Origin: Chloroflexota bacterium
Lineage (GTDB): Bacteria; Chloroflexota; Anaerolineae; Aggregatilineales; Phototrophicaceae
NCBI GenBank assembly: GCA_011525385.1
Contig: WTGF01000111.1
Coordinates: 62,001-126,000, forward strand
Direction of reading: 5' to 3'
Length of the DNA stretch: 64,000 nucleotides
The notes under the pieces are model-generated. The model did no database searches, had not been told where the DNA came from, and saw only the letters and a program-made list of their open reading frames with translations. Position 1 is the stretch's first letter. The number at the start of each line of letters is the position of its first letter. This document shows, piece by piece, positions 47,059 through 59,865 of this stretch. The translations under genes were made by a program, and so were the position numbers.

Positions 47059-47769
47059 TTAATTCAAGCTGCGAGCCAAACCGGTCAGTTGCGAACGGAC
47101 GCTGCCGTCGACCATGCCGCCGGGCCAGCGCACGATCAAGCCGCCCAGAATCTCCGGATCAACTTGATAATCTACTTCGTCCGCGCCAATTTCGCCTTGA
47201 ATATTTTTCTGCTCGGCCGCGGTCAAAGGCATGGCGCTGACGACTTCCACGCTGCCGCCGATGCCTTTTGCGCCCTCGGGCAGGTCCGCGATGAAGCTGT
47301 TGACCAGCGCTTTCTGCTTGGTCTTGGTGATATTCTCGTCCAAAATGCGGCTGGCCACAGCGACCGAGATGTTCAGCACCTGCTCGCGCAGGTTGCCCAA
47401 CTCGGCATTACGCGTAGCCACCGCTTCGGTTTGGGCGTCGGTTTGAATCTTGGCCGCGGCCTGGCGCGCGTCCTGCTCGACCGCGGCGGCGACATCTTCG
47501 CCGCGGCCACGGGCTTCGTCGATCACCTTCTGCGCTTCAGCCCGCGCCTGCGCCAGGATCGTATCGGCTTCAGCTTCGGCGTTTTCCCGCGCCCGCGCCG
47601 CGGCGGCCGCGTCTTCCAAGCCTTTGGCGATGCGATTGCGCCGCTCGTTGAGCATATTCACCAAGGGATCGTAGATGAAGCGTGTCATCACCGTATACAG
47701 AACGATGAAGGCGATTATCCATATCAGCATCAATCCGGGATTGATGCCCAAATTGTCAAGTACGCTCAT
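47059..47769 (-). CDS. atpF: ATP synthase subunit b fused to the C-terminal domain of subunit delta
   Basis: 236 residues, about 70 longer than normal b. Residues 13-32 form the single TM helix (MLIWIIAFIVLYTVMTRFIY), and 40-155 are the long amphipathic stator helix rich in Ala/Glu/Arg. From about 165 the sequence is the end of delta/OSCP: SVEVVSAMPLTAAEQKNI, then VDYQVDPEILGGLIVRWPG and VDGSVRSQLTGLARSL. The N-terminal six-helix delta domain that contacts alpha is missing. Mycobacteria have a b-delta fusion, but with whole delta. The gene is the last of atpZ-atpB-atpE-atpF and is followed by a terminator. Confidence 0.9.
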   Translation of the reverse strand: MSVLDNLGINPGLMLIWIIAFIVLYTVMTRFIYDPLVNMLNERRNRIAKGLEDAAAAARARENAEAEADTILAQARAEAQKVIDEARGRGEDVAAAVEQDARQAAAKIQTDAQTEAVATRNAELGNLREQVLNISVAVASRILDENITKTKQKALVNSFIADLPEGAKGIGGSVEVVSAMPLTAAEQKNIQGEIGADEVDYQVDPEILGGLIVRWPGGMVDGSVRSQLTGLARSLN

Positions 47770-48141: not shown

Positions 48142-48160
48142 TCGCTGCCGCCGAGCGGCT
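48142..48160. repeat. 19-bp repeat with a GCCGC/GCGGC core, copy B
   Basis: Identical to 43520-43538 and overlapping the atpB stop codon. In the mRNA it would give a short GC hairpin right at the atpB-atpE junction. Confidence 0.6.
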
Positions 48161-49577
48161 AATGTGCTTCGGCATGGTCATGATCATCATCATGATGATG
48201 GCTGACCGTTGCCAGATTCATGAAGATCGCGGTCAACAAGGCGAATACCAGAGCTTGTATGACACCGACGAAAAACTCCAAGATGAAAAAGGGCCAGGGC
48301 AGGATCGGCACCAGGAAGCTCATGACAAAGAGCAGGATCGACCCGGCGAAGATATTGCCCAAAAGACGGAAGCCAAACGAGAGAATCTTGGCGAAGTCGC
48401 CAATCAACTCCAGCAAGCCCACCGCTACATCAATACCGCCCAGCGGCGATTTGAAGAGTGTGCCAAAGTTGAAGAACTTGGTCAGATAGCCGATGCCCAG
48501 CGCCTTGAAACCAATGAACTGGATCATGACGAATGAGATCAAAGCCAGCGATAGCGTCATATTCAGATCGGTTGACGGGACGCGCACGAATGGCAAGACC
48601 ACCCAAGGCACGAGCTTGGCTTCTTCTCCCTTGGGATCCGGGTGCAGCGGGATGGATTTCTTCTTGTCGGCTTTATCGTCGCCGACATAGTCATCCGCCC
48701 ATGGAACCGGTCCCACACCGGTATAACAACTGCGATCGGCGCGCGCTTGCTTTGCGGCTACCCTAGCCGCCAATACTTCGTCATAAGCGGCCGTGGCCGC
48801 ATCCGACCCGCCAGATTCTGCGCTATGCGCCTCATCGCCGTGACCATCACTCGATTCGTCAGTAGTGTGTTCTTCCGCGCCGTGTTCGTCCTTCGCCGCC
48901 TGATAGCGCGCGTAAGCGGCGTCCTCAATCGACGCCTGCTCGGCAGCCGCGGCGGCGGCTTTCGCTTCTACCAGCGCCGCCTCGTCAGCCGCCGCCTCAT
49001 CAGCCGGGCTGATCCAGTCGCACTGGCCGTTGACGTAGGAGATGCCCAAGAAACCTTGATAGATCTCGTAGCCATCGGTGGTGATCACCTTGTATCCGCC
49101 ACTGTCAGCATCGTATTTTTCTTTGACGTGAGGATGGATGAAGCCGACGGTATCGACGCCGGGCACGAGTTCCATCCAGTTTGCCAGCAGCACCACCAGA
49201 AAGATCGTCATGAACATGTTGAAGATCAGACGGAAATGCCTGCCCGCGGCGATGCCTCCGACGAAGCCCATCAAGCCCTCGAACAGCGCCTCAAACATGT
49301 TGTAGAAGCCGCCCGGCGGAACCTCATTGCCGCTTTTGGGGCGGCGCCGCGAGACGTAAATGACGAAAAGGAGCAGCAAAATCCACACGATCACCGAACC
49401 CGTGAAGGTATTCGTCAAGCGAATATCCGTGAAGGGGACGTTAAAGCCTTCGGGGAAATTCTCTCCAGGCAATTGGATGAAGGGTATGACAGGTGGAACC
49501 CGCAACGCGACAAAAACACCAGCCAGCAGCATAAGCAAGGCGACGAACCGGCGTTTCCCGTTCCAAAAACTATTCAC
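48159..49577 (-). CDS. atpB: ATP synthase subunit a, with a large insertion
   Basis: 472 residues, about 200 more than usual. The core is present: TM1 (about 60-76), TM2 (115-137), then LSLALISFVMIQFIG, and the essential Arg404 in FGFRLLGNIFAG. Between TM2 and the next helix, residues about 145-330 are inserted. This region is Ala/Glu-rich (190-280), has His/Asp/Ser runs (HGAEEHTTDESSDGHGDEAH), and Cys186 and Cys284 flank the repeat-like centre. In the usual topology this loop is on the outer side of the membrane. The GTG start overlaps the atpZ end by 8 bases. Confidence 0.93.
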   Translation of the reverse strand: MNSFWNGKRRFVALLMLLAGVFVALRVPPVIPFIQLPGENFPEGFNVPFTDIRLTNTFTGSVIVWILLLLFVIYVSRRRPKSGNEVPPGGFYNMFEALFEGLMGFVGGIAAGRHFRLIFNMFMTIFLVVLLANWMELVPGVDTVGFIHPHVKEKYDADSGGYKVITTDGYEIYQGFLGISYVNGQCDWISPADEAAADEAALVEAKAAAAAAEQASIEDAAYARYQAAKDEHGAEEHTTDESSDGHGDEAHSAESGGSDAATAAYDEVLAARVAAKQARADRSCYTGVGPVPWADDYVGDDKADKKKSIPLHPDPKGEEAKLVPWVVLPFVRVPSTDLNMTLSLALISFVMIQFIGFKALGIGYLTKFFNFGTLFKSPLGGIDVAVGLLELIGDFAKILSFGFRLLGNIFAGSILLFVMSFLVPILPWPFFILEFFVGVIQALVFALLTAIFMNLATVSHHHDDDHDHAEAH

Positions 49578-49935: not shown

Positions 49936-51435
49936 TTATAGGCCGCTCGCGCCCAGCACCGCCCAGTTGTAAATCGGCGTGACCGCAATTGTGCCCAGCA
50001 AGACGACAATGCTCGCGGTGATGCCCAAAGCCCAACCGTATGAGCGCGGGATGCCCACCGGGATCTCGTCATCCGGTCCCACATCGACATACATCACTTT
50101 AATGACAACCAGATAGTAATAGAGCGCGATGATGGCATTGGCCACGGCGATCAATGCCAGCCCGACCAAATTGGACTTGACCGCAGCCTGGAAAAGGAAG
50201 AACTTGCCAAAGAAACCGGCTGTCGGCGGGATGCCGCCCAACGACAGCAATCCGATCGTGATAAAGAGCGCCAGCCAGGGACTGCGTCGGTTCAAGCCAG
50301 CCAGATCTTTGATGTCTTCCTTGCCGGTAGCCGCGATGAAAAGAATCACGCCGCCGAATACCAGTAGATTGGTGAAGATATACATGAACATGTAAAAGGA
50401 GACCGATGCGACTGCCAGGCTGTCATCCAGGCCCTGGAGCGCTGCCACGCCGATCAAGGTATAGCCGGCCTGGGCGATGGACGAATATGCCAGCAGACGC
50501 TTGATATTGCTTTGCCGCAAGGCGACGACGTTTCCCAGGGTCATGCTCACTATCGCGATCACGACCAGCAGGTTGACCCAGAAATCCTGGATCACGACGC
50601 CGGCTATCGCTAAATCGGGCGGGAAAACAGCCGTCAGAAAACGGACCAGCAAGGCAAAGCTGGCCGCCTTGCTCGAGACGCTCACAAATGCTGTGACTGG
50701 TGTCGGAGCGCCTTCGTAGACATCGGGCGTCCAAAAGTGGAAGGGCACCGCGCTCAGCTTAAAGCCGAAGCCAACCACCACCATGACCAAAGCCGCCATA
50801 ACCGCGACCAACCCCCCGTCGAATCCGCCGCTCATGGCATCGGCAATGCCGCCTAGATTGGTCGTGCCGGCGAAGCCATAGAGCAAGCTGAAACCGAAGA
50901 GCATGATCGCCGAGGCAAAGGCGCCGTAGAGGAAGTACTTCATGCCGCCTTCCGCCGAACGCAAATCGCCGCGGCGGAAGCTCGCCAGCATATAAAGCGG
51001 GATCGACAACGTCTCCAGCGCCACAAAGACCAGGATCAGGTCACTCGCGCTGGCCATCATCAAGCCGCCAAGCGTGGCAACGATCACGATCAAATAGAAC
51101 TCGCCCTTGTCACCGACGCCCTTGTCGCCCAGCGCCATCAAACAGGTCACCGCGCCCGACAGCAGCAGCATCACCTTGAATATCTGCGAGAGCGGATCGT
51201 AATTGACCATCCCGCCCCAGAGCAAAACGCCCTTCTCAAATTGCGCCGGGTCGGGAACCCAGATCAAGGGGACCAGCGCCAACAGCGCCATGCCAACGGC
51301 CGAGACAAAGACAACATTGCGGCGGGTAGCGATAGAACCGTAGATATCGGCGAAGAGCACAATCACCGCGAGCGCCGTCAAGCCGACTTCCGGCAAGACC
51401 GACGGCAGTTGCGCCCAGAGATCAAATGCTTCCAT
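49936..51435 (-). CDS. nuoN: NADH-quinone oxidoreductase subunit N
   Basis: 499 residues, about 14 TM helices. One of the three antiporter-like proton-pumping subunits. FVALETLSIPLYMLASFRR carries the conserved Glu on TM5, and the Lys-containing GFKLSAVPFHFWTPDVYEGAP is the proton-channel segment on TM7. Last gene of the nuo run. Its ATG directly follows the nuoM stop (TAG then ATG), so the two are tightly coupled. Confidence 0.95.
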   Translation of the reverse strand: MEAFDLWAQLPSVLPEVGLTALAVIVLFADIYGSIATRRNVVFVSAVGMALLALVPLIWVPDPAQFEKGVLLWGGMVNYDPLSQIFKVMLLLSGAVTCLMALGDKGVGDKGEFYLIVIVATLGGLMMASASDLILVFVALETLSIPLYMLASFRRGDLRSAEGGMKYFLYGAFASAIMLFGFSLLYGFAGTTNLGGIADAMSGGFDGGLVAVMAALVMVVVGFGFKLSAVPFHFWTPDVYEGAPTPVTAFVSVSSKAASFALLVRFLTAVFPPDLAIAGVVIQDFWVNLLVVIAIVSMTLGNVVALRQSNIKRLLAYSSIAQAGYTLIGVAALQGLDDSLAVASVSFYMFMYIFTNLLVFGGVILFIAATGKEDIKDLAGLNRRSPWLALFITIGLLSLGGIPPTAGFFGKFFLFQAAVKSNLVGLALIAVANAIIALYYYLVVIKVMYVDVGPDDEIPVGIPRSYGWALGITASIVVLLGTIAVTPIYNWAVLGASGL

Positions 51436-53157
51436 CTAGCCACCTCCCAAGAGGGCGATTAGCGGTCGAATGCCGGATTCGATCATCGGAGCCATGATCG
51501 GCGGGTACAAGCCCAATATGATAAGAGGCGCGCCCAAAATAATGAGTACGATGCGGTCGGTCGCCGCGATATCGCCGACATCATGGAATTGCTCGGCATC
51601 AAACTCGCCGAAGAAGACCTGCCCGGCCACGCGCAATACATAGGCTGCCGTGATGACAATACCCAGCGCGGACAGGATCACAATCACGCTGTAATAGTTG
51701 CTGAGCTGGAAGCTGCCTAGCTGCAAGGTAATTTGCTCGGAGGCCGCCCACATACCCTGGAAAATGGGGAATTCGGCGATAAAGCCACTGAGACCGGGCA
51801 TGCCCATACTGGTCAAACCGCCGATGACAAAAGCCACGCCCACCCAGGGCATCACTTTCATGAAGCCGCCCAGGCTGGGAATATCACGGGTATGAGCGCG
51901 ATCGTAGACCATGCCCACCACACCGAAGAAGAGGGCGGTCATCGCGCCATGGCTGAACATTTGAATGCCCGCTCCCGTCATGCCGGTCAGGTTCATCGTC
52001 GCCCAGCCCATGCTCACTAAACCCATGTGACTGACCGACGAAAAGCCAATGACATATTTGAAGTCTCGCTGCCTGAAGGCGATTAGAGCGCCATAGACGA
52101 CGTTGATCAAGGTCAGGAAAACGATCCAGGGCAAGTGCGTCTGCGCGCCGTCGGGCAGCAACTGCACGCCCGCGCGCAGGGCCGCGAAAGCCCCCACTTT
52201 CATCAAAACGCCCGCGTGAATCATCGAGACAGCCGTCGGCGCGGCCACGTGACCATCGGGCGACCAATTGTGGAATGGGAATACACCAGCCAACACGCCA
52301 AAGCCGATGAACATGAAGGGGAACCAGAAGCGCGCGAAGCTCAAACCTTCGATGCCCAGTATCTCAATCGCGAAGGCGCCATTTTCCGCCGCCAGCGTCA
52401 ACTGCACCATGCTCCAGCTATAAGGCGCGCTGTCCGCGGGCAAAATGCCGCTGGCCAGGGCCGCTTGGAAGACTTCCGCGCCGCTGCCGGAGAAAAACGC
52501 TCCCGCCGCGAAATACATCGCCACCGCGCCAACCAGCGCGAATACCGAACCAACCAGGATATACAAGGTCAGCTTCATCGCGGCGTACTCGCGCAGCTTC
52601 ACCCAACCCCAGCCCGCTATCAGCAAATACATCGGGAAGATCGCCAGTTCATAAAAGAAGAAGAGCATGAAGAGATCAACAGCGATGAAGACGCCATAAA
52701 CGCCGGCGACCAGGAACATGAAGAAAGCCATGAATTCGCGCAGGCGGTCTTCGATATTCCAGGAGATCAAGACGCCGGCAACAGCCACCATGCCGGTGAG
52801 CAAGACCATCGGCGCCGAAACGCCATCGACGCCCACGTGATAAGCGATGCCCAGCGATTCCACCCAGACGATACGTTGCTCGAAGGCCAGCGAATCGACA
52901 AACATCCGCGCGCCGCTGAGATCGCCGCCGGCCGCCAGCATCGTCATCTGCTGCTCGATCAAGCCACCGGCGCCCTTGACATAATTGTCGTAACCGAAGA
53001 ACACCGCCAGGGACAAGGCCAGAACTGCCGAAGCGGCGGTAATCGCCACCCCGCGCACCAGGTCGCGATTCTTCCTGTCCAGAAAGAGAATGACAAAACC
53101 GGCGATGATGGGAATGAAGATGATCGCCGTGAGTACCGAAAAACCCGTTGCATCCAT
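51436..53157 (-). CDS. nuoM: NADH-quinone oxidoreductase subunit M (second NuoM in order)
   Basis: 573 residues, about 14 TM. FFFYELAIFPMYLLIAGWG holds the TM5 Glu, and GVFPFHNWSPDGHVAAPTAVSMIHAGVLMKVGAF is the TM7-TM8 channel with its His and Lys. SSVSHMGLVSMGWATMNLTGMTGAGIQMFSHGAMTALFF also fits NuoM. It is the copy next to nuoN. It differs from the upstream copy in length and in the loop GVQLLPDGAQTHLPW. Two NuoM-type genes in one cluster point to a larger complex I membrane arm. Confidence 0.94.
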   Translation of the reverse strand: MDATGFSVLTAIIFIPIIAGFVILFLDRKNRDLVRGVAITAASAVLALSLAVFFGYDNYVKGAGGLIEQQMTMLAAGGDLSGARMFVDSLAFEQRIVWVESLGIAYHVGVDGVSAPMVLLTGMVAVAGVLISWNIEDRLREFMAFFMFLVAGVYGVFIAVDLFMLFFFYELAIFPMYLLIAGWGWVKLREYAAMKLTLYILVGSVFALVGAVAMYFAAGAFFSGSGAEVFQAALASGILPADSAPYSWSMVQLTLAAENGAFAIEILGIEGLSFARFWFPFMFIGFGVLAGVFPFHNWSPDGHVAAPTAVSMIHAGVLMKVGAFAALRAGVQLLPDGAQTHLPWIVFLTLINVVYGALIAFRQRDFKYVIGFSSVSHMGLVSMGWATMNLTGMTGAGIQMFSHGAMTALFFGVVGMVYDRAHTRDIPSLGGFMKVMPWVGVAFVIGGLTSMGMPGLSGFIAEFPIFQGMWAASEQITLQLGSFQLSNYYSVIVILSALGIVITAAYVLRVAGQVFFGEFDAEQFHDVGDIAATDRIVLIILGAPLIILGLYPPIMAPMIESGIRPLIALLGGG

Positions 53158-53167
53158 TATGCCATTC

Positions 53168-54802
53168 CTAGCCAGTTATTCCGGCGAACAAGGTGGCGAC
53201 GGTCGCATTGATCGTCGGCAGAATCCAGTTGGGATAAAGTCCCGTGAGCAACATCAAGAACATCAGCGGTATCATGCCCAGCAGCTCGGCCGGGGTCAAT
53301 TCCAGGTCGTAATCTCGCCAGCGCAGGTTGAAGGGACCGTGCAGAACCGCGCGGATCCCCTTGAGAATGTAGCCGCCGGTGAAAAGCAAACCGATCATGG
53401 CGATGGCCGTCAGCCCGGTGAAAACGGGCCAGGACCCGCGCACGATCAGGAATTCGCTCACGAATCCATTCAGACCGGGCAATCCCAGGCTGGCCAAGCT
53501 GGTGAATATCAGGATCGCGCCCATCACCGGCGCTTTCACCCAAAGGCCGCCGTAGTCGTTTAGGTCGCGCGTGTGCGTCTTGTGGTAAAGCGCGCCCGCC
53601 AGCAAAAACATGCCAGCCGAGCTCAAGCCGTGATTGAACATCTGCAGCACGGTACCATTCGTGGCGAGAATAGCCGTCTGCACGTCGGCGCCCGCTCCCG
53701 CCCCAGTCCAAATTTGCGCGTAAATTTGCGCCATGACGGCGATGCCGATACCGACAAAACCCATGTGATTCACGGAACTGTAGGCCACCAGCCGCTTGAT
53801 GTCATTCTGCCCGAATGCCGCAAAAGCCCCCAATACAATGCCAACCACGGACAATATGGCAAACAGCGTCGCCACATTGACGCCGATCAGCACCACCTCG
53901 GTCAGCCAGACATCGGGGAACAGGGGAATCACCAGCCGGATGAAACCATAAGCGCCCAGCTTCAGCATGATGCCCGCCAGGAGCATTGAACCGGCGGTTG
54001 GCGCTTCGCCATGCGCGTCCGGCAGCCAGGTATGGAAGGGCCAAATCGGCACTTTGATGCTGAAGGCGACGAAGAAACCGGCGAATGCCAGCGCCTTAAC
54101 CGTACTGACGTCGATGCCCAGCAGCGCCTCGCCTTGTCGGAAAAGGGGCCAGGTTTCCACCAATTCCGCCATATTGTAGGTACCGGCCGACCAGCCGATG
54201 AGTTGTGTAGCCAGCAGCATGCCCAGCGTGCCGCCAAATGAGTAGATCATGAACTTGGTAGAGGCGTAGAAGCGGCCGCTGTATTTGATGCCCGCTTTGG
54301 GCAGACTGCCCCATTGATTGATCAGGAAGTACATCGGGACCAGGGTCAGTTCATAAAAGAGGAAGAAGACCATCAGGTCCATGGCCGCGAAGACGCCCAT
54401 GCTGCCGGTCTCGAAGAAGAGCAGCAGCGCCATGTGCATATTGCTGCGGTCTTCGATGTTCCAGCTTGCCAGGATCGCCAACGGCGTCAGGATGCCGGTC
54501 AACAGAATCATCACGACGCTGATGCCGTCAATGCCCAGCGTCCAGCGCGCGCCCAGCGCAGTAAACCATTCCACATCTTGCGCCACGATGTATTGATCGT
54601 CGCCAATGGCGGGCGCCGCCGCTTGATAATCAAGAAAGACCGCGATTGAGAGCATCGCGAACAATAGCGAGAAGATCAGCGCGGTCCAGCGACCGACTGA
54701 TTTGCTTGGTCCCAGCGGCGCCATCGCAGCGACGACGAAGGCGGCCAGCGCTGGACCGAAGATCAGCACGGAGAGCGCGTCAATCCCGAAAATCTGTATC
54801 AT
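53168..54802 (-). CDS. nuoM: NADH-quinone oxidoreductase subunit M (first NuoM in order)
   Basis: 544 residues, about 14 TM. FFLFYELTLVPMYFLINQWG holds the TM5 Glu; SIKVPIWPFHTWLPDAHGEAPTAGSMLLAGIMLKLGAYGF is the TM7-TM8 channel with Lys. It lies 12 bases after nuoL and 10 before the other nuoM. It looks complete with its charged residues, so both copies should pump. This is the extra antiporter-like subunit of a 2M-type complex I. Confidence 0.93.
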   Translation of the reverse strand: MIQIFGIDALSVLIFGPALAAFVVAAMAPLGPSKSVGRWTALIFSLLFAMLSIAVFLDYQAAAPAIGDDQYIVAQDVEWFTALGARWTLGIDGISVVMILLTGILTPLAILASWNIEDRSNMHMALLLFFETGSMGVFAAMDLMVFFLFYELTLVPMYFLINQWGSLPKAGIKYSGRFYASTKFMIYSFGGTLGMLLATQLIGWSAGTYNMAELVETWPLFRQGEALLGIDVSTVKALAFAGFFVAFSIKVPIWPFHTWLPDAHGEAPTAGSMLLAGIMLKLGAYGFIRLVIPLFPDVWLTEVVLIGVNVATLFAILSVVGIVLGAFAAFGQNDIKRLVAYSSVNHMGFVGIGIAVMAQIYAQIWTGAGAGADVQTAILATNGTVLQMFNHGLSSAGMFLLAGALYHKTHTRDLNDYGGLWVKAPVMGAILIFTSLASLGLPGLNGFVSEFLIVRGSWPVFTGLTAIAMIGLLFTGGYILKGIRAVLHGPFNLRWRDYDLELTPAELLGMIPLMFLMLLTGLYPNWILPTINATVATLFAGITG

Positions 54803-54814
54803 AGATGCGTCTCC

Positions 54815-57142
<2,328 letters not shown>

Positions 57143-57150
57143 CGCGGTCC

Positions 57151-57468
57151 TTATCCTTTCAGCGTGTCAGCTTCTTCCGGTATGACCGACCGCCGATTGC
57201 GATAAACGGTGATAATGATCGCCAGGCCCACAGCGGCTTCCGCCGCTGCGATAATGAGAACAAAAGCGGTGAAAGCGTAACCGTTGAGCAGCAGGGGCGT
57301 GCCCGTTTCGCTATAGCGCCAGAACGCGACCAAATTGATATTGACGGCGTTCAGCATTAGTTCGACGCCCATCAGGATCGCCACGGCGTTACGTCGCGAC
57401 AGGACGCCAAAGACGCCGATGCAAAAGAGCGCCGCGGCAACCGCCAGATACATCCAAAGAGGCACCAT
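57151..57468 (-). CDS. nuoK: NADH-quinone oxidoreductase subunit K
   Basis: 105 residues, three TM helices. LMGVELMLNAVNINLVAFWR carries the conserved TM2 Glu and AAAEAAVGLAIIITVYRN the TM3 Glu that pass protons between modules. It lies 13 bases after nuoJ and 8 before nuoL. Confidence 0.95.
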   Translation of the reverse strand: MVPLWMYLAVAAALFCIGVFGVLSRRNAVAILMGVELMLNAVNINLVAFWRYSETGTPLLLNGYAFTAFVLIIAAAEAAVGLAIIITVYRNRRSVIPEEADTLKG

Positions 57469-57481
57469 GCGTCCCTACCCC

Positions 57482-57994
57482 CTAGCTTTCTTCATCGCGA
57501 GCGATGAAGATCGCGCCGATCATAGCTGCCGTCAACAATACCGATGCTAGCAAGAATGGCACCACATAGCCGTTGCCTTCGACCAGCGCGACGCCGAGAT
57601 CGCGCGTGGTCATCACAACTGTCGGCGCCATCTCCGAAGGATAATCGCCGAAGATCGGCACGGTGATGCCGAAGAGCAACACCAGGAAAAGCGCCAGCGA
57701 GGCGACAAAGCTCGGTATCGTCCGGATGTATCGTTCGTTGATACGGGTGACGCTGCGCGTCAACATCACGGCGAAAGTGATCAGAATCGCGATCGCGCCG
57801 ATGTAAACCAGCACCTGCACCGCCGCCAAAAAAGGCGCGCTGAGCAAAACAAAATAACCGGCCACGCCAAACAAGCTGACCATCAGCCAGATCGTGCCTT
57901 GGAACAGGTTGCGGGTCGTCACCACGCCGATGCCGCCGCCCAATGTCAAGGCGGTGAAAACGAAAAAGCCGATGGTGACCGCATTCAATTCCAT
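57482..57994 (-). CDS. nuoJ: NADH-quinone oxidoreductase subunit J
   Basis: 170 residues, five TM helices. AAVQVLVYIGAIAILITFAVMLTR is the TM3 segment with the pi-bulge used in coupling. It follows nuoH directly; nuoI, which usually lies between H and J, is missing from this cluster. Confidence 0.93.
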   Translation of the reverse strand: MELNAVTIGFFVFTALTLGGGIGVVTTRNLFQGTIWLMVSLFGVAGYFVLLSAPFLAAVQVLVYIGAIAILITFAVMLTRSVTRINERYIRTIPSFVASLALFLVLLFGITVPIFGDYPSEMAPTVVMTTRDLGVALVEGNGYVVPFLLASVLLTAAMIGAIFIARDEES

Positions 57995-58007: not shown

Positions 58008-59234
58008 CTAGTCCCCGGCTCCGCTCGCCGCCTGCGCCAGCGACCCCTGATTGGCCCCCGACTCGCGGCGGGCTTCCTGCCCGCGCTTGCGCAATATGCC
58101 CAACAAGTAAGCGACCATTGCCAAGTTGATCAACAGCATGATGATCGTCGTGGGCAAGACATCCACTAAGCTCGCGGACAGCATATCGCGAGGCGCAATG
58201 CCCAACTCTTGCAGGATCTTTAGCGCTGCTGAAAGCAAAATCAAGTTGGCAATGGACAGCGGCACCAGGAACTTCCAGTTGAATGCCATGATTTGATCAA
58301 TGCGCAGGCGGGGCACCGTATTGCGCAACCAGAGCGTGGTCAAATAGATGATCGTGCCTTTGAGGCCCAGCCAGCCGAAGGCGATCAGCGGCGATTCGTA
58401 GTAGAGCGGTCCCATCCAGCCGCCGAAGAAGAGCAGCGCCATCAAGATGCCGTTGGTGAAGACGTGCAAGAATTCGGCCGCGAAGAACATGCCGAATTTC
58501 ATGCCCGAGTATTCGATATTGAAGCCCGCCACCAACTCCGATTCGGCTTCGATCAGATCGAAGGGCGCGCGACCGGTTTCAGCTTGTGATGAAATGTAAA
58601 AGATGGCGAAAGCCAGCGGTGAAAGCACAACGAACCACATGCCCGTTTGCGCGTTGACGATATCAAGCATGCTCATGCTGCCAGCTAGCATCACCGGCAC
58701 CAGCAGCGCGAAAACGAGCGGCACTTCATAGCTCACCAGCAGCGCGACCACGCGAAAGGCGCCCAGCAAGGCATATTTGTTGTTGCTCGCCCAGCCCGCG
58801 GTCATGATTGCAAGCGTGCCCAAAGAAGCTATCGCCACGAAATACAAAGCGCCGATCTCTAAATCGACGCCGAAATGAAAGGGCGTGAAAGGCACCACTA
58901 CCCAAATGAGTACGACGGATGCGAATGAAACCAGGGGCGCGGCATTATAGAGTACGCGATCGGCGGAGGTCGGCGTGATGTCTTCCTTGCCGAGCAGCTT
59001 GAGCAAGTCGGCAAAGGTCTGCATCAGCCCGAGCGGCCCCACACGGTTGGGCCCGATGCGGTCTTGGATCCTAGCGGCGACCTTACGCTCCACCCAGATC
59101 AAGATGATGACTGTCAGCAGCGGCACGCCGCTGACCAGCAAGACACCGACCAGCAGGGAGACAAATTGCGCCAAACCGGCGTCGGCCCCCGACTCCACCA
59201 TCAATTTGCACAGACCGGTACAAAGTTCGTCCAT
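58008..59234 (-). CDS. nuoH: NADH-quinone oxidoreductase subunit H
   Basis: 408 residues, about eight TM. It forms the quinone entry site with the peripheral arm. ILIWVERKVAARIQDRIGPNRVGPLGLMQTFADLLKLL is the strongest signature, and RAPFDLIEAESELVAGFNIEYSGMKFG the acidic loop facing NuoD/B. The start at 59234 has GGAGA upstream; a longer frame overlaps nuoA and is not conserved. The C-terminal KRGQEARRESGANQGS tail is unusual. Confidence 0.95.
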   Translation of the reverse strand: MDELCTGLCKLMVESGADAGLAQFVSLLVGVLLVSGVPLLTVIILIWVERKVAARIQDRIGPNRVGPLGLMQTFADLLKLLGKEDITPTSADRVLYNAAPLVSFASVVLIWVVVPFTPFHFGVDLEIGALYFVAIASLGTLAIMTAGWASNNKYALLGAFRVVALLVSYEVPLVFALLVPVMLAGSMSMLDIVNAQTGMWFVVLSPLAFAIFYISSQAETGRAPFDLIEAESELVAGFNIEYSGMKFGMFFAAEFLHVFTNGILMALLFFGGWMGPLYYESPLIAFGWLGLKGTIIYLTTLWLRNTVPRLRIDQIMAFNWKFLVPLSIANLILLSAALKILQELGIAPRDMLSASLVDVLPTTIIMLLINLAMVAYLLGILRKRGQEARRESGANQGSLAQAASGAGD

Positions 59235-59263
59235 AGTCGTCTCCGGCAAGCCTCCGCCCGAGC

Positions 59264-59626
59264 TTACTTCCAGTCCAGGGCGTTCTTCTTCCAAGCATAG
59301 AAGAGCGCGTCAGTCAGCAGGAAGATGAACAGGAAGCCCGCCACGAATCCAAAGAGGTTCATCTCGTTATAGGCGACAGCCCATGGGAACAAGAAAACCA
59401 TTTCCACATCAAATACCAGGAAAATCAAACCGTAGATATAATATTGAACACGAAATTGCACCCAGGTATCGCCGATGGTTTCCACACCGCATTCGTAGGT
59501 GGAACTCTTCAGCACGTTGGGCTTGCGCGGACGGACAAGCCAGGCGATCACGATCGGCAAAGCCGGGAATACCGGCGCCATCAACGCGAACAAACCGACA
59601 AAAGCCCATTCGTTCAGTACGTTCAT
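59264..59626 (-). CDS. nuoA: NADH-quinone oxidoreductase subunit A
   Basis: 120 residues, three TM helices. STYECGVETIGDTWVQFRVQYYIYGLIFLVFDVEMVFLFPWA is the family core, including the Cys loop that moves during turnover and the TM2 acidic pair. The start at 59626 has GAGGG upstream and matches the usual N-terminus; the frame extending to 59785 is unconserved. It heads the nuo transcript. Confidence 0.94.
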   Translation of the reverse strand: MNVLNEWAFVGLFALMAPVFPALPIVIAWLVRPRKPNVLKSSTYECGVETIGDTWVQFRVQYYIYGLIFLVFDVEMVFLFPWAVAYNEMNLFGFVAGFLFIFLLTDALFYAWKKNALDWK

Positions 59627-59720
59627 CGGAGCAATACCCTCAAGCTGGTTAGGACTGATGCCGCGACACTGACCAACGGCATTTCGGTATCCGATTGCGC
59701 CATTTATCACAAACTCCGCT

Positions 59721-59749
59721 AGTATATCATCACCATCACCCAAGTGCAA
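59721..59749 (-). promoter_or_regulatory. Promoter of the nuo cluster
   Basis: Minus strand: extended -10 TGA plus TATACT (59726-59721, 5 of 6), with TTGCAC (59749-59744, 3 of 6) 17 bases upstream. The start near 59714 leaves a leader of about 88 bases before nuoA. Confidence 0.5.
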
Positions 59750-59865
59750 CGGAATGTTGATGACCAAACCGGGGGATTTTTTCACAACTTCGTTTGCATG
59801 CCAATATCACTTCCAAGGACTATCGAGCGAGGAGGCGGCGATTGACGGTCTATCCCGAAAATCGC

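Follow-up and report, generated by a model that had tools for sequence, protein, structure and literature searches.

The analysed window, a 64,000-nucleotide stretch of a Chloroflexota contig, probably encodes the membrane arm of a Chloroflexi-type 2M complex I in which the second NuoM protein (M2) takes part in proton transfer, with a histidine in TM8 replacing the TM7 lysine (LysTM7). According to the available text of PMC7419157, complex I coupling models lean on an invariant, essential TM7 lysine in every antiporter-like subunit. The NuoM branch lacking this residue (K-less, as opposed to K-type), which provides the sole NuoM of some operons and the fixed partner of an ordinary NuoM in the Chloroflexota 2M complexes examined, offers a natural mutant set for testing these models.

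Gene order of the complex I clusters

Two intact NuoM open reading frames (ORFs), nuoM1 (53168..54802, 544 aa) and nuoM2 (51436..53157, 573 aa), lie on the minus strand, flanked by nuoL (54815..57142, 775 aa) and nuoN (49936..51435, 499 aa, TM7 Lys present), both also on the minus strand. The two products scored 458 bits (M1) and 421 bits (M2) against the NCBIfam NuoM model TIGR01972 (cut-off 263.8 bits), in agreement with the first-pass annotation, which had reported two intact adjacent NuoM genes. The same strand carries nuoK (57151..57468, 105 aa), nuoJ (57482..57994, 170 aa), nuoH (58008..59294, ORF of 428 aa whose true start may be further in) and nuoA (59264..59785, ORF of 173 aa with a family match from residue 58, so the true start is probably further in); nuoL, nuoK and nuoJ were likewise assigned by ORF and family match. 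The order L-M1-M2-N was present in 63 of 80 relatives (many of the remaining 17 are truncated or broken), and because of this recurrence the arrangement is not a product of chance.

The nuoBCDI genes are located away from the membrane-arm operon, on contig G000:C100, with nuoCD fused (NuoB, 294 aa; NuoCD, 626 aa; NuoI, 291 aa). NuoEFG were absent from both gene clusters, and NuoF matches in this genome occurred only on contigs C6 and C68. The C68 NuoF was not counted as part of the 2M complex: its neighbour, judged by eye, resembles FdhD, which points to an NAD-linked formate dehydrogenase.

The 2M complex I of Chloroflexi was reportedly described by Chadwick et al. in 2018. The window complex is a member of this already known kind, and the 2M label given in the first-pass annotation is upheld by two NuoM-family proteins, a 75-residue NuoL lateral-helix span and the published gene layout. 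2M complexes of Chloroflexota have been published (PMC7117926, PMC8004040), and the available text of PMC7117926 gives their layout as nuoLM1M2N with a separate nuoBCDI and fused nuoCD; the window is alike in all of these features and in its long NuoL. The available parts of this literature regard the extra NuoM as an additional pump, whereas M2 here is K-less and belongs to a different branch from M1. A limited literature search found no biochemistry on any Chloroflexota 2M complex.

Channel residues of M1 and M2

We aligned both proteins with E. coli NuoM and computed codon coordinates from the ORF starts. The TM5 Glu (E151 in M1, E170 in M2), the TM8 Lys (K281, K320), the TM12 Glu (E450, E462) and three channel histidines (E. 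coli H241, H322 and H348) were kept in both. The equivalent of E. coli K234, the TM7 lysine, is K250 in M1 (codon 54053..54055, minus strand) but Leu289 in M2 (codon 52291..52293, minus strand), and M2 carries His314 in TM8 (codon 52216..52218, minus strand), six residues ahead of Lys320. The earlier statement that both proteins keep the TM5 Glu and the TM7-TM8 Lys/His is thus correct for the TM5 Glu, the TM8 Lys and the channel His, and fails at TM7 of M2; since M2 lacks this lysine, conservation does not bear out the claim that both should pump. TM7 of M2 contains no lysine at all, its nearest preceding basic residue being Arg276, 13 residues away at the helix start, and inspection of the helix revealed no shifted lysine. 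A sequencing error at Leu289 was ruled out, as M2 of the other genomes examined has L or T there.

Across 54 loci with two NuoM in other Chloroflexota genomes, the TM7 site was K in M1 of all 54, and L (52 loci) or T (2 loci) in M2. These loci had been retrieved with M2 as the starting point (E<=1e-80), and any 2M locus whose two NuoM are both K-type may have escaped. This survey gives a better count than the first 71 M2 proteins, because those had been found with search patterns including a peptide beside the TM7 site. The canonical channel residue set was therefore incomplete in the second NuoM of the window and of 54/54 other two-NuoM loci. In the available literature, a full canonical set in the second NuoM appears as an assumption of the pumping argument, and was not found there as a published definition of 2M.

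The TM8 His at six residues ahead of the TM8 Lys was found in 56 of 60 K-less NuoM proteins vs 0/99 of the K-type, while the TM7 lysine was present in 0/60 and 99/99, respectively. The four K-less proteins without the TM8 His indicate that this residue cannot be the sole substitute. The AlphaFold2 model of M2 drew TM7 as one helix, but its confidence at TM7-TM8 (pLDDT 42-46 near the site) was too low for the model to be informative there.

The available text of PMC7419157 describes the TM7 Lys as absolutely conserved and essential, reports a TM8 pi-bulge His for MrpA/NuoL and, for NuoM/NuoN, names the TM8 Lys as the sole protonatable residue of that helix. MrpA has a TM8 His and Lys six apart, as does M2 (H273/K279 in that text; H258/K264 in this genome), and keeps the TM7 Lys by the same account, which M2 does not; M2 has the TM12 Glu, as in NuoM and in contrast to MrpA.

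Phylogeny of the K-less NuoM and its role in proton transfer

To place M1 and M2, trees were built that included the window and 20 of the 54 two-NuoM loci, hand-picked for spread. With the TM7-TM8 columns removed, the K-less NuoM formed one clade (support 100/100), corresponding to one change on the tree. M2 falls in this single clade, with the TM7 Lys absent and the TM8 His at Lys-6, together with the sole NuoM of two Bacteroidota operons and of three Chloroflexota loci. The Bacteroidota operons (Prevotella nigrescens, Bacteroides finegoldii), which by annotation lack NuoEFG, share the TM8 His with M2; unlike in the window, the K-less protein is their only NuoM. Forcing the Anaerolineae M1 and M2 into one clade was rejected (p-AU 1.7e-32). 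M1 and M2 are not sisters, and a recent tandem duplication is rejected by both tree and AU test; the sequences compared place M2 in a separate NuoM branch and not as a copy of M1. Two MrpD-like and four NuoN sequences lay beyond a branch of support 100 from NuoM. Neither NuoM grouped with the two MrpD-like proteins tested, in keeping with the first-pass assignment, and an Mrp origin of one of them is unsupported.

M2 is under strong purifying selection. In four comparisons its dN/dS was 0.041-0.050, against 0.077-0.109 for M1, and the lowest among the four antiporter subunits (synonymous sites were saturated in a fifth). M2 was the most conserved subunit in 62 of 62 cases, in a comparison that used loci found through M2.

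In the mechanism that we favour, the window would supply subunits A, H, J, K, L, M1, M2 and N, and NuoB, NuoCD and NuoI would come from G000:C100, giving four antiporter-like subunits in one assembled arm. M2 would adjoin NuoN, as the sole NuoM would in Bacteroidota, and M1 would be the added subunit. M2 would join proton transfer through an N-terminal half-channel that works without LysTM7, its TM8 His acting as a switchable group that stands in, at the H-x5-K spacing of MrpA; GluTM5 of M2 might then couple mainly to LysTM12 of NuoN. The green complex I of rhizobia also has four antiporter-like subunits by annotation, with two MrpD-like subunits replacing NuoL and, unlike M2, a K-type NuoM.

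A broader reading, plausible but held tentatively, is that there are two ancient functional types of NuoM, the textbook type, which carries LysTM7, and another whose charge has shifted to the TM8 pi-bulge His, and that the Chloroflexota 2M complex joins both in fixed order (N - K-less - K-type - L) as two differently coupled half-steps in series. If true, the K-less NuoM would argue against the LysTM7/GluTM5 pair as a universal coupling point of complex I.

It is unlikely that M2 is instead a conserved non-pumping spacer or relay, which lengthens the arm or tunes its electrostatics and moves no proton itself. The loss of a residue called absolutely conserved and essential (PMC7419157, available text) would suit such a role, but the window M2 retains the remaining channel residues and has the lowest dN/dS noted above, and in the two Bacteroidota operons and the three Chloroflexota loci above, no NuoM other than a K-less one is encoded. 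Very unlikely is a duplicated NuoM in which both copies are ordinary pumps, raising the yield by one proton per NADH through the canonical mechanism: M1 and M2 are both full-length with the TM5 Glu, TM8 Lys and TM12 Glu, and the available literature proposes extra pumping for 2M complexes, yet M2 is missing the TM7 Lys, the tree does not make the two proteins duplicates of one another, and NuoEFG is missing from both gene clusters, which means that NADH cannot be taken for granted as the donor. The conservation of the second NuoM can no longer be used as an argument for a fifth proton.

NuoL lateral helix and the second complex I

The lateral-helix span of the window NuoL (residues 671-745; 54908..55132, minus strand) comprises 75 residues, compared with 48-50 in 33 of 40 other NuoL loci and 45 in E. 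coli. This lengthening of about 26 residues relative to most one-NuoM complexes of the same phylum agrees with the insertion of about 26-28 residues anticipated in the first-pass annotation. AlphaFold2 predicted helices at 668-720 and 728-742, with low confidence at the lateral helix. The span was 73-78 in 51 of 52 two-NuoM loci with NuoL >550 aa (L141, L150 and L171, with NuoL partial or absent, were dropped), the remaining locus having a NuoL ORF that stops short, and 49 in all three one-NuoM loci with a K-less NuoM. Similar features have been reported elsewhere: the available texts describe a second NuoM with a lengthened NuoL or a lateral-helix insertion of ~26 residues in Nitrospira (clade 3) and in Ca. 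Manganitrophus Complex_I_3, which the window resembles in both respects, and long helices also in two other complexes of Ca. Manganitrophaceae.

The 40 census loci were chosen among the matches listed, avoiding known 2M loci; within this selection none carried two full-length NuoM, and 37 had one full-length NuoM and were scored at TM7. The rest were L267 (NuoM present by tblastn, 42% identical, missed by the ORF step and unscored at TM7), L279, whose NuoM is divided between two frames, and L270, which has no NuoM match in the NuoL-NuoN interval. A long lateral helix accompanied a single NuoM in 7/40 census loci. The second complex I of this genome, on contig C6, likewise has a long helix and only one NuoM gene, and the span was 78 in all 15 family loci of this complex type, 14 of them with one NuoM; the fifteenth (L218) had no NuoM or NuoN match in ~6 kb after NuoL. 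Because the long NuoL helix also occurs with one NuoM, in this genome and its family, it is not diagnostic of 2M on its own, a 2M complex cannot be called from it, and it neither proves a fourth subunit in place nor suffices as evidence for a fourth pump, contrary to its earlier use as a sign of an extra antiporter.

It is highly improbable that a NuoM of the 2M operon (M2 or M1) is shared between complexes, with the C6 complex borrowing it: the 78-residue span of that complex type with one NuoM or no NuoM match, and a PF00361 search of this 94% complete genome whose antiporter-like hits, apart from the Mrp locus on C25, were confined to C122 and C6, would allow it, but the inserts of the two NuoL types are dissimilar, a 2M locus is present as well in 18/40 census genomes, 12 of which have a short helix in their other complex, and one locus (L257) combines a long helix and one NuoM in a genome (G066) outside the 58 with an M2 match.

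The one-NuoM count excludes five loci with a span of 48 (L231-L235), in which NuoL is followed by a single other antiporter-like gene, most similar to NuoN, and after it by B, C, D and H. Enlargement of NuoJ or NuoH was considered as a possible reason for the long helix of the second complex, whose NuoJ has a DUF4397 match.

Two different NuoM proteins in the window complex

The window (G000:C122:62001-126000), from a 94% complete genome that totals 4.9 Mb over 131 contigs, carried on its minus strand nuoA, nuoH, nuoJ, nuoK, nuoL, nuoM1, nuoM2 and nuoN, in this order, followed by ATP synthase Fo genes. Contig C100 held nuoB, a 626-aa fused nuoCD with both Pfam domains, and nuoI side by side. 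Passages in the literature describe Chloroflexi complexes with two NuoM (2M) as having nuoLM1M2N, separate nuoBCDI and fused nuoCD (PMC7117926, citing Chadwick et al. 2018), and place a 2M cluster in Chloroflexus aggregans (PMC8004040, citing Chadwick et al. 2018). The window complex is a sound member of this known kind. The passages used from PMC9040806, PMC6606698 and PMC12342949 report 2M complexes in Nitrospira and Ca. Manganitrophaceae, the latter with helix insertions in other complexes too, and a passage of PMC11636273 a duplicated nuoM in Acidobacterium. The word "lysine" was absent from the main text of both PMC9040806 and PMC6606698.

The first-pass annotation had claimed two intact NuoM genes, and this was borne out: M1 (53168-54802, minus strand, 544 aa) and M2 (51436-53157, minus strand, 573 aa) both exceeded the NCBIfam NuoM cut-off. 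It had also claimed that both keep the TM5 Glu and the TM7-TM8 channel Lys/His. Each protein does carry the TM5 Glu, TM8 Lys, three channel His and TM12 Glu, but the TM7 Lys (E. coli NuoM K234) is K250 in M1 and Leu289 in M2 (motif GFGVLAGVFPFHNW vs AFSIKVPIWPFHTW), so the statement on TM7 was wrong for M2. The doubling consistently pairs two distinct kinds of NuoM, one with the TM7 Lys (K-type) and one without it (K-less), and this pairing is more interesting than the original argument with its one wrong premise. Among named records, the closest M2 (98-99% identical) were in Chloroflexi/Anaerolineae MAGs (L017-L020).

Distribution and phylogeny of the K-less NuoM

In a first set of relatives, found by a search with a peptide beside the TM7 site, the TM7 position was Leu in 71/71 full-length M2, the window's included. 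A phylum survey of 301 genomes gave 58 with an M2 match at E<=1e-80, from which 57 loci were fetched, the window not counted. Two NuoM were present at 54 of these, with TM7 Lys in M1 at 54/54 and Leu (52), Thr (2) or Lys (0) in M2; the other three (L166, L170, L181) had one NuoM, which was K-less. A separate census by NuoL (PF00662) found matches in at least 81 genomes; among 40 places fetched from the matches listed, 37 had one full-length NuoM, with TM7 Lys in 37/37, and the remaining three had one unscored NuoM, one split NuoM and no NuoM match, respectively. At the complex I locus L270 (G054:C95), NuoN directly followed NuoL with no NuoM match between. The operons of Prevotella nigrescens and Bacteroides finegoldii (plasmid loci) each had a single NuoM, which was K-less, whereas the examined NuoM of the rhizobial green complex I was K-type, unlike M2.

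When 60 K-less and 99 K-type NuoM were aligned together, the TM7 site was Leu (58) or Thr (2) in the former and Lys (99) in the latter. On TM8, the residue matching E. coli position 259 was His (56) or Leu (4) vs Leu, Val, Ile or Phe (99/99). No aligned protein combined the TM7 Lys with the position-259 His. These counts are not independent events, because the sets share much ancestry.

In a 57-row tree built with the TM7-TM8 columns excluded, the 26 K-less NuoM grouped in a single clade (SH-aLRT and ultrafast bootstrap both 100), with one change of the K state across the tree. Trees constrained to join Anaerolineae M1 and M2 (p-AU 1.7e-32) or all M1 and all M2 (p-AU 3.7e-5) were rejected; M2 is therefore not a copy of M1. 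The K-less type is found without a partner as well, which makes it simpler to suppose that a K-type NuoM joined an existing K-less one on the side of NuoL; with the NuoM root unsettled, this direction is an inference. Compared with four relatives, M2 had a dN/dS of 0.041-0.050, below NuoL, M1 and NuoN every time (a fifth comparison was saturated), and M2 was the most similar of the four genes in 62/62 relatives with all four, these loci having been found through M2.

Proposed coupling in K-less NuoM

Passages of PMC7419157 call LysTMH7 absolutely conserved and essential, place the coupling point at LysTMH7/GluTMH5 plus the neighbour's TMH12 residue, and describe a TM8 pi-bulge, with Lys as the sole residue of TM8 that can be protonated in NuoM and NuoN, His plus Lys (H273, K279) in MrpA and His alone in NuoL. 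The MrpA of the window genome, from an Mrp antiporter locus on contig C25, has H258 and K264, and M2 has H314 and K320 at equal spacing. The TM8 His site, E. coli position 259, falls inside residues 255-265, the cytoplasmic half of E. coli NuoM TM8 that a passage of PMC8357420 describes as mobile.

The alignment showed a TM7-to-TM8 residue swap in K-less NuoM, and from it we infer a functional role for the TM8 His. The switchable positive group may sit on TM8 rather than TM7 in these proteins, and GluTM5 would answer mainly to LysTM12 of NuoN. Four K-less members (two L-L, two T-L) lack the TM8 His, so His is not the whole answer.

The TM8 Lys was displaced in 6/54 M2. Five (L150, L151, L152, L165, L167) had Ala at this position, with a Lys just ahead of it, and also lacked the TM11 His; L153 had Asn. 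The M2 of L131 and L144, without TM8 His, had Glu two residues ahead of the TM8 Lys (GVEMK).

NuoL lateral helix and neighbouring genes

The first-pass annotation had taken an extended NuoL lateral helix as a 2M sign. Counted between the conserved Tyr in the D-x-(L/I)-Y motif and the Gly that precedes TM16, the span was 75 in the window and 45 in E. coli. It was 73-78 in 51/52 two-NuoM loci (in the one exception, at 59, the NuoL ORF ended early), 49 in three loci with one K-less NuoM, and 48-50 in 33/40 census loci fetched. The other seven had a span of 79, each with one K-type NuoM, and six belonged to family f2. Unexpectedly, the window genome's second complex I (L010, contig C6), with one NuoM, had a span of 78. 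Its NuoL was matched in 57/61 genomes of the organism's own family at E<=1e-60, a cut-off loose enough to let in other NuoL types, and the span was 78 in 15/15 family loci fetched for this type, 14 with one NuoM and L218 without a NuoM match. Since the long helix also accompanies a single NuoM, it speaks for a fourth subunit without proving one. An AlphaFold2 NuoL model placed helix at 668-720 and 728-742, where its block pLDDT of 40-62 was too weak for measuring a length.

The second-complex insert was unlike the 2M-type insert. Spans of 78-79 in single-NuoM loci were found at L010:11324-13828, L217-L230 (no NuoM found in L218), L236, L257, L263, L273, L276, L277, L281 and L282, and most of these inserts had a W-x-F-(W/L)-H motif, in which they differ from the insert of the 2M type. 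The second-complex NuoJ (L010:9541-10965, 474 aa) had a DUF4397 match within a large insertion between TM helices, and NuoJ length was 418-482 aa across 15 family loci of this type.

NuoF-family matches in the window genome were restricted to C6 and C68. On C68 (L186:6303-9512), a 568-aa NuoEF-like fusion and a NuoG-like protein adjoined a gene that we take by eye to be FdhD; the set is probably an NAD-linked formate dehydrogenase.

Within the window, one 236-aa protein (47059-47769) joined ATP synthase b and delta (OSCP) domains (PF00430 + PF00213). Subunit a (48159-49577, 472 aa) had a long charged insertion ahead of its conserved C-terminal part and was matched in 68/80 relatives, with lengths of 331 to 554 aa.
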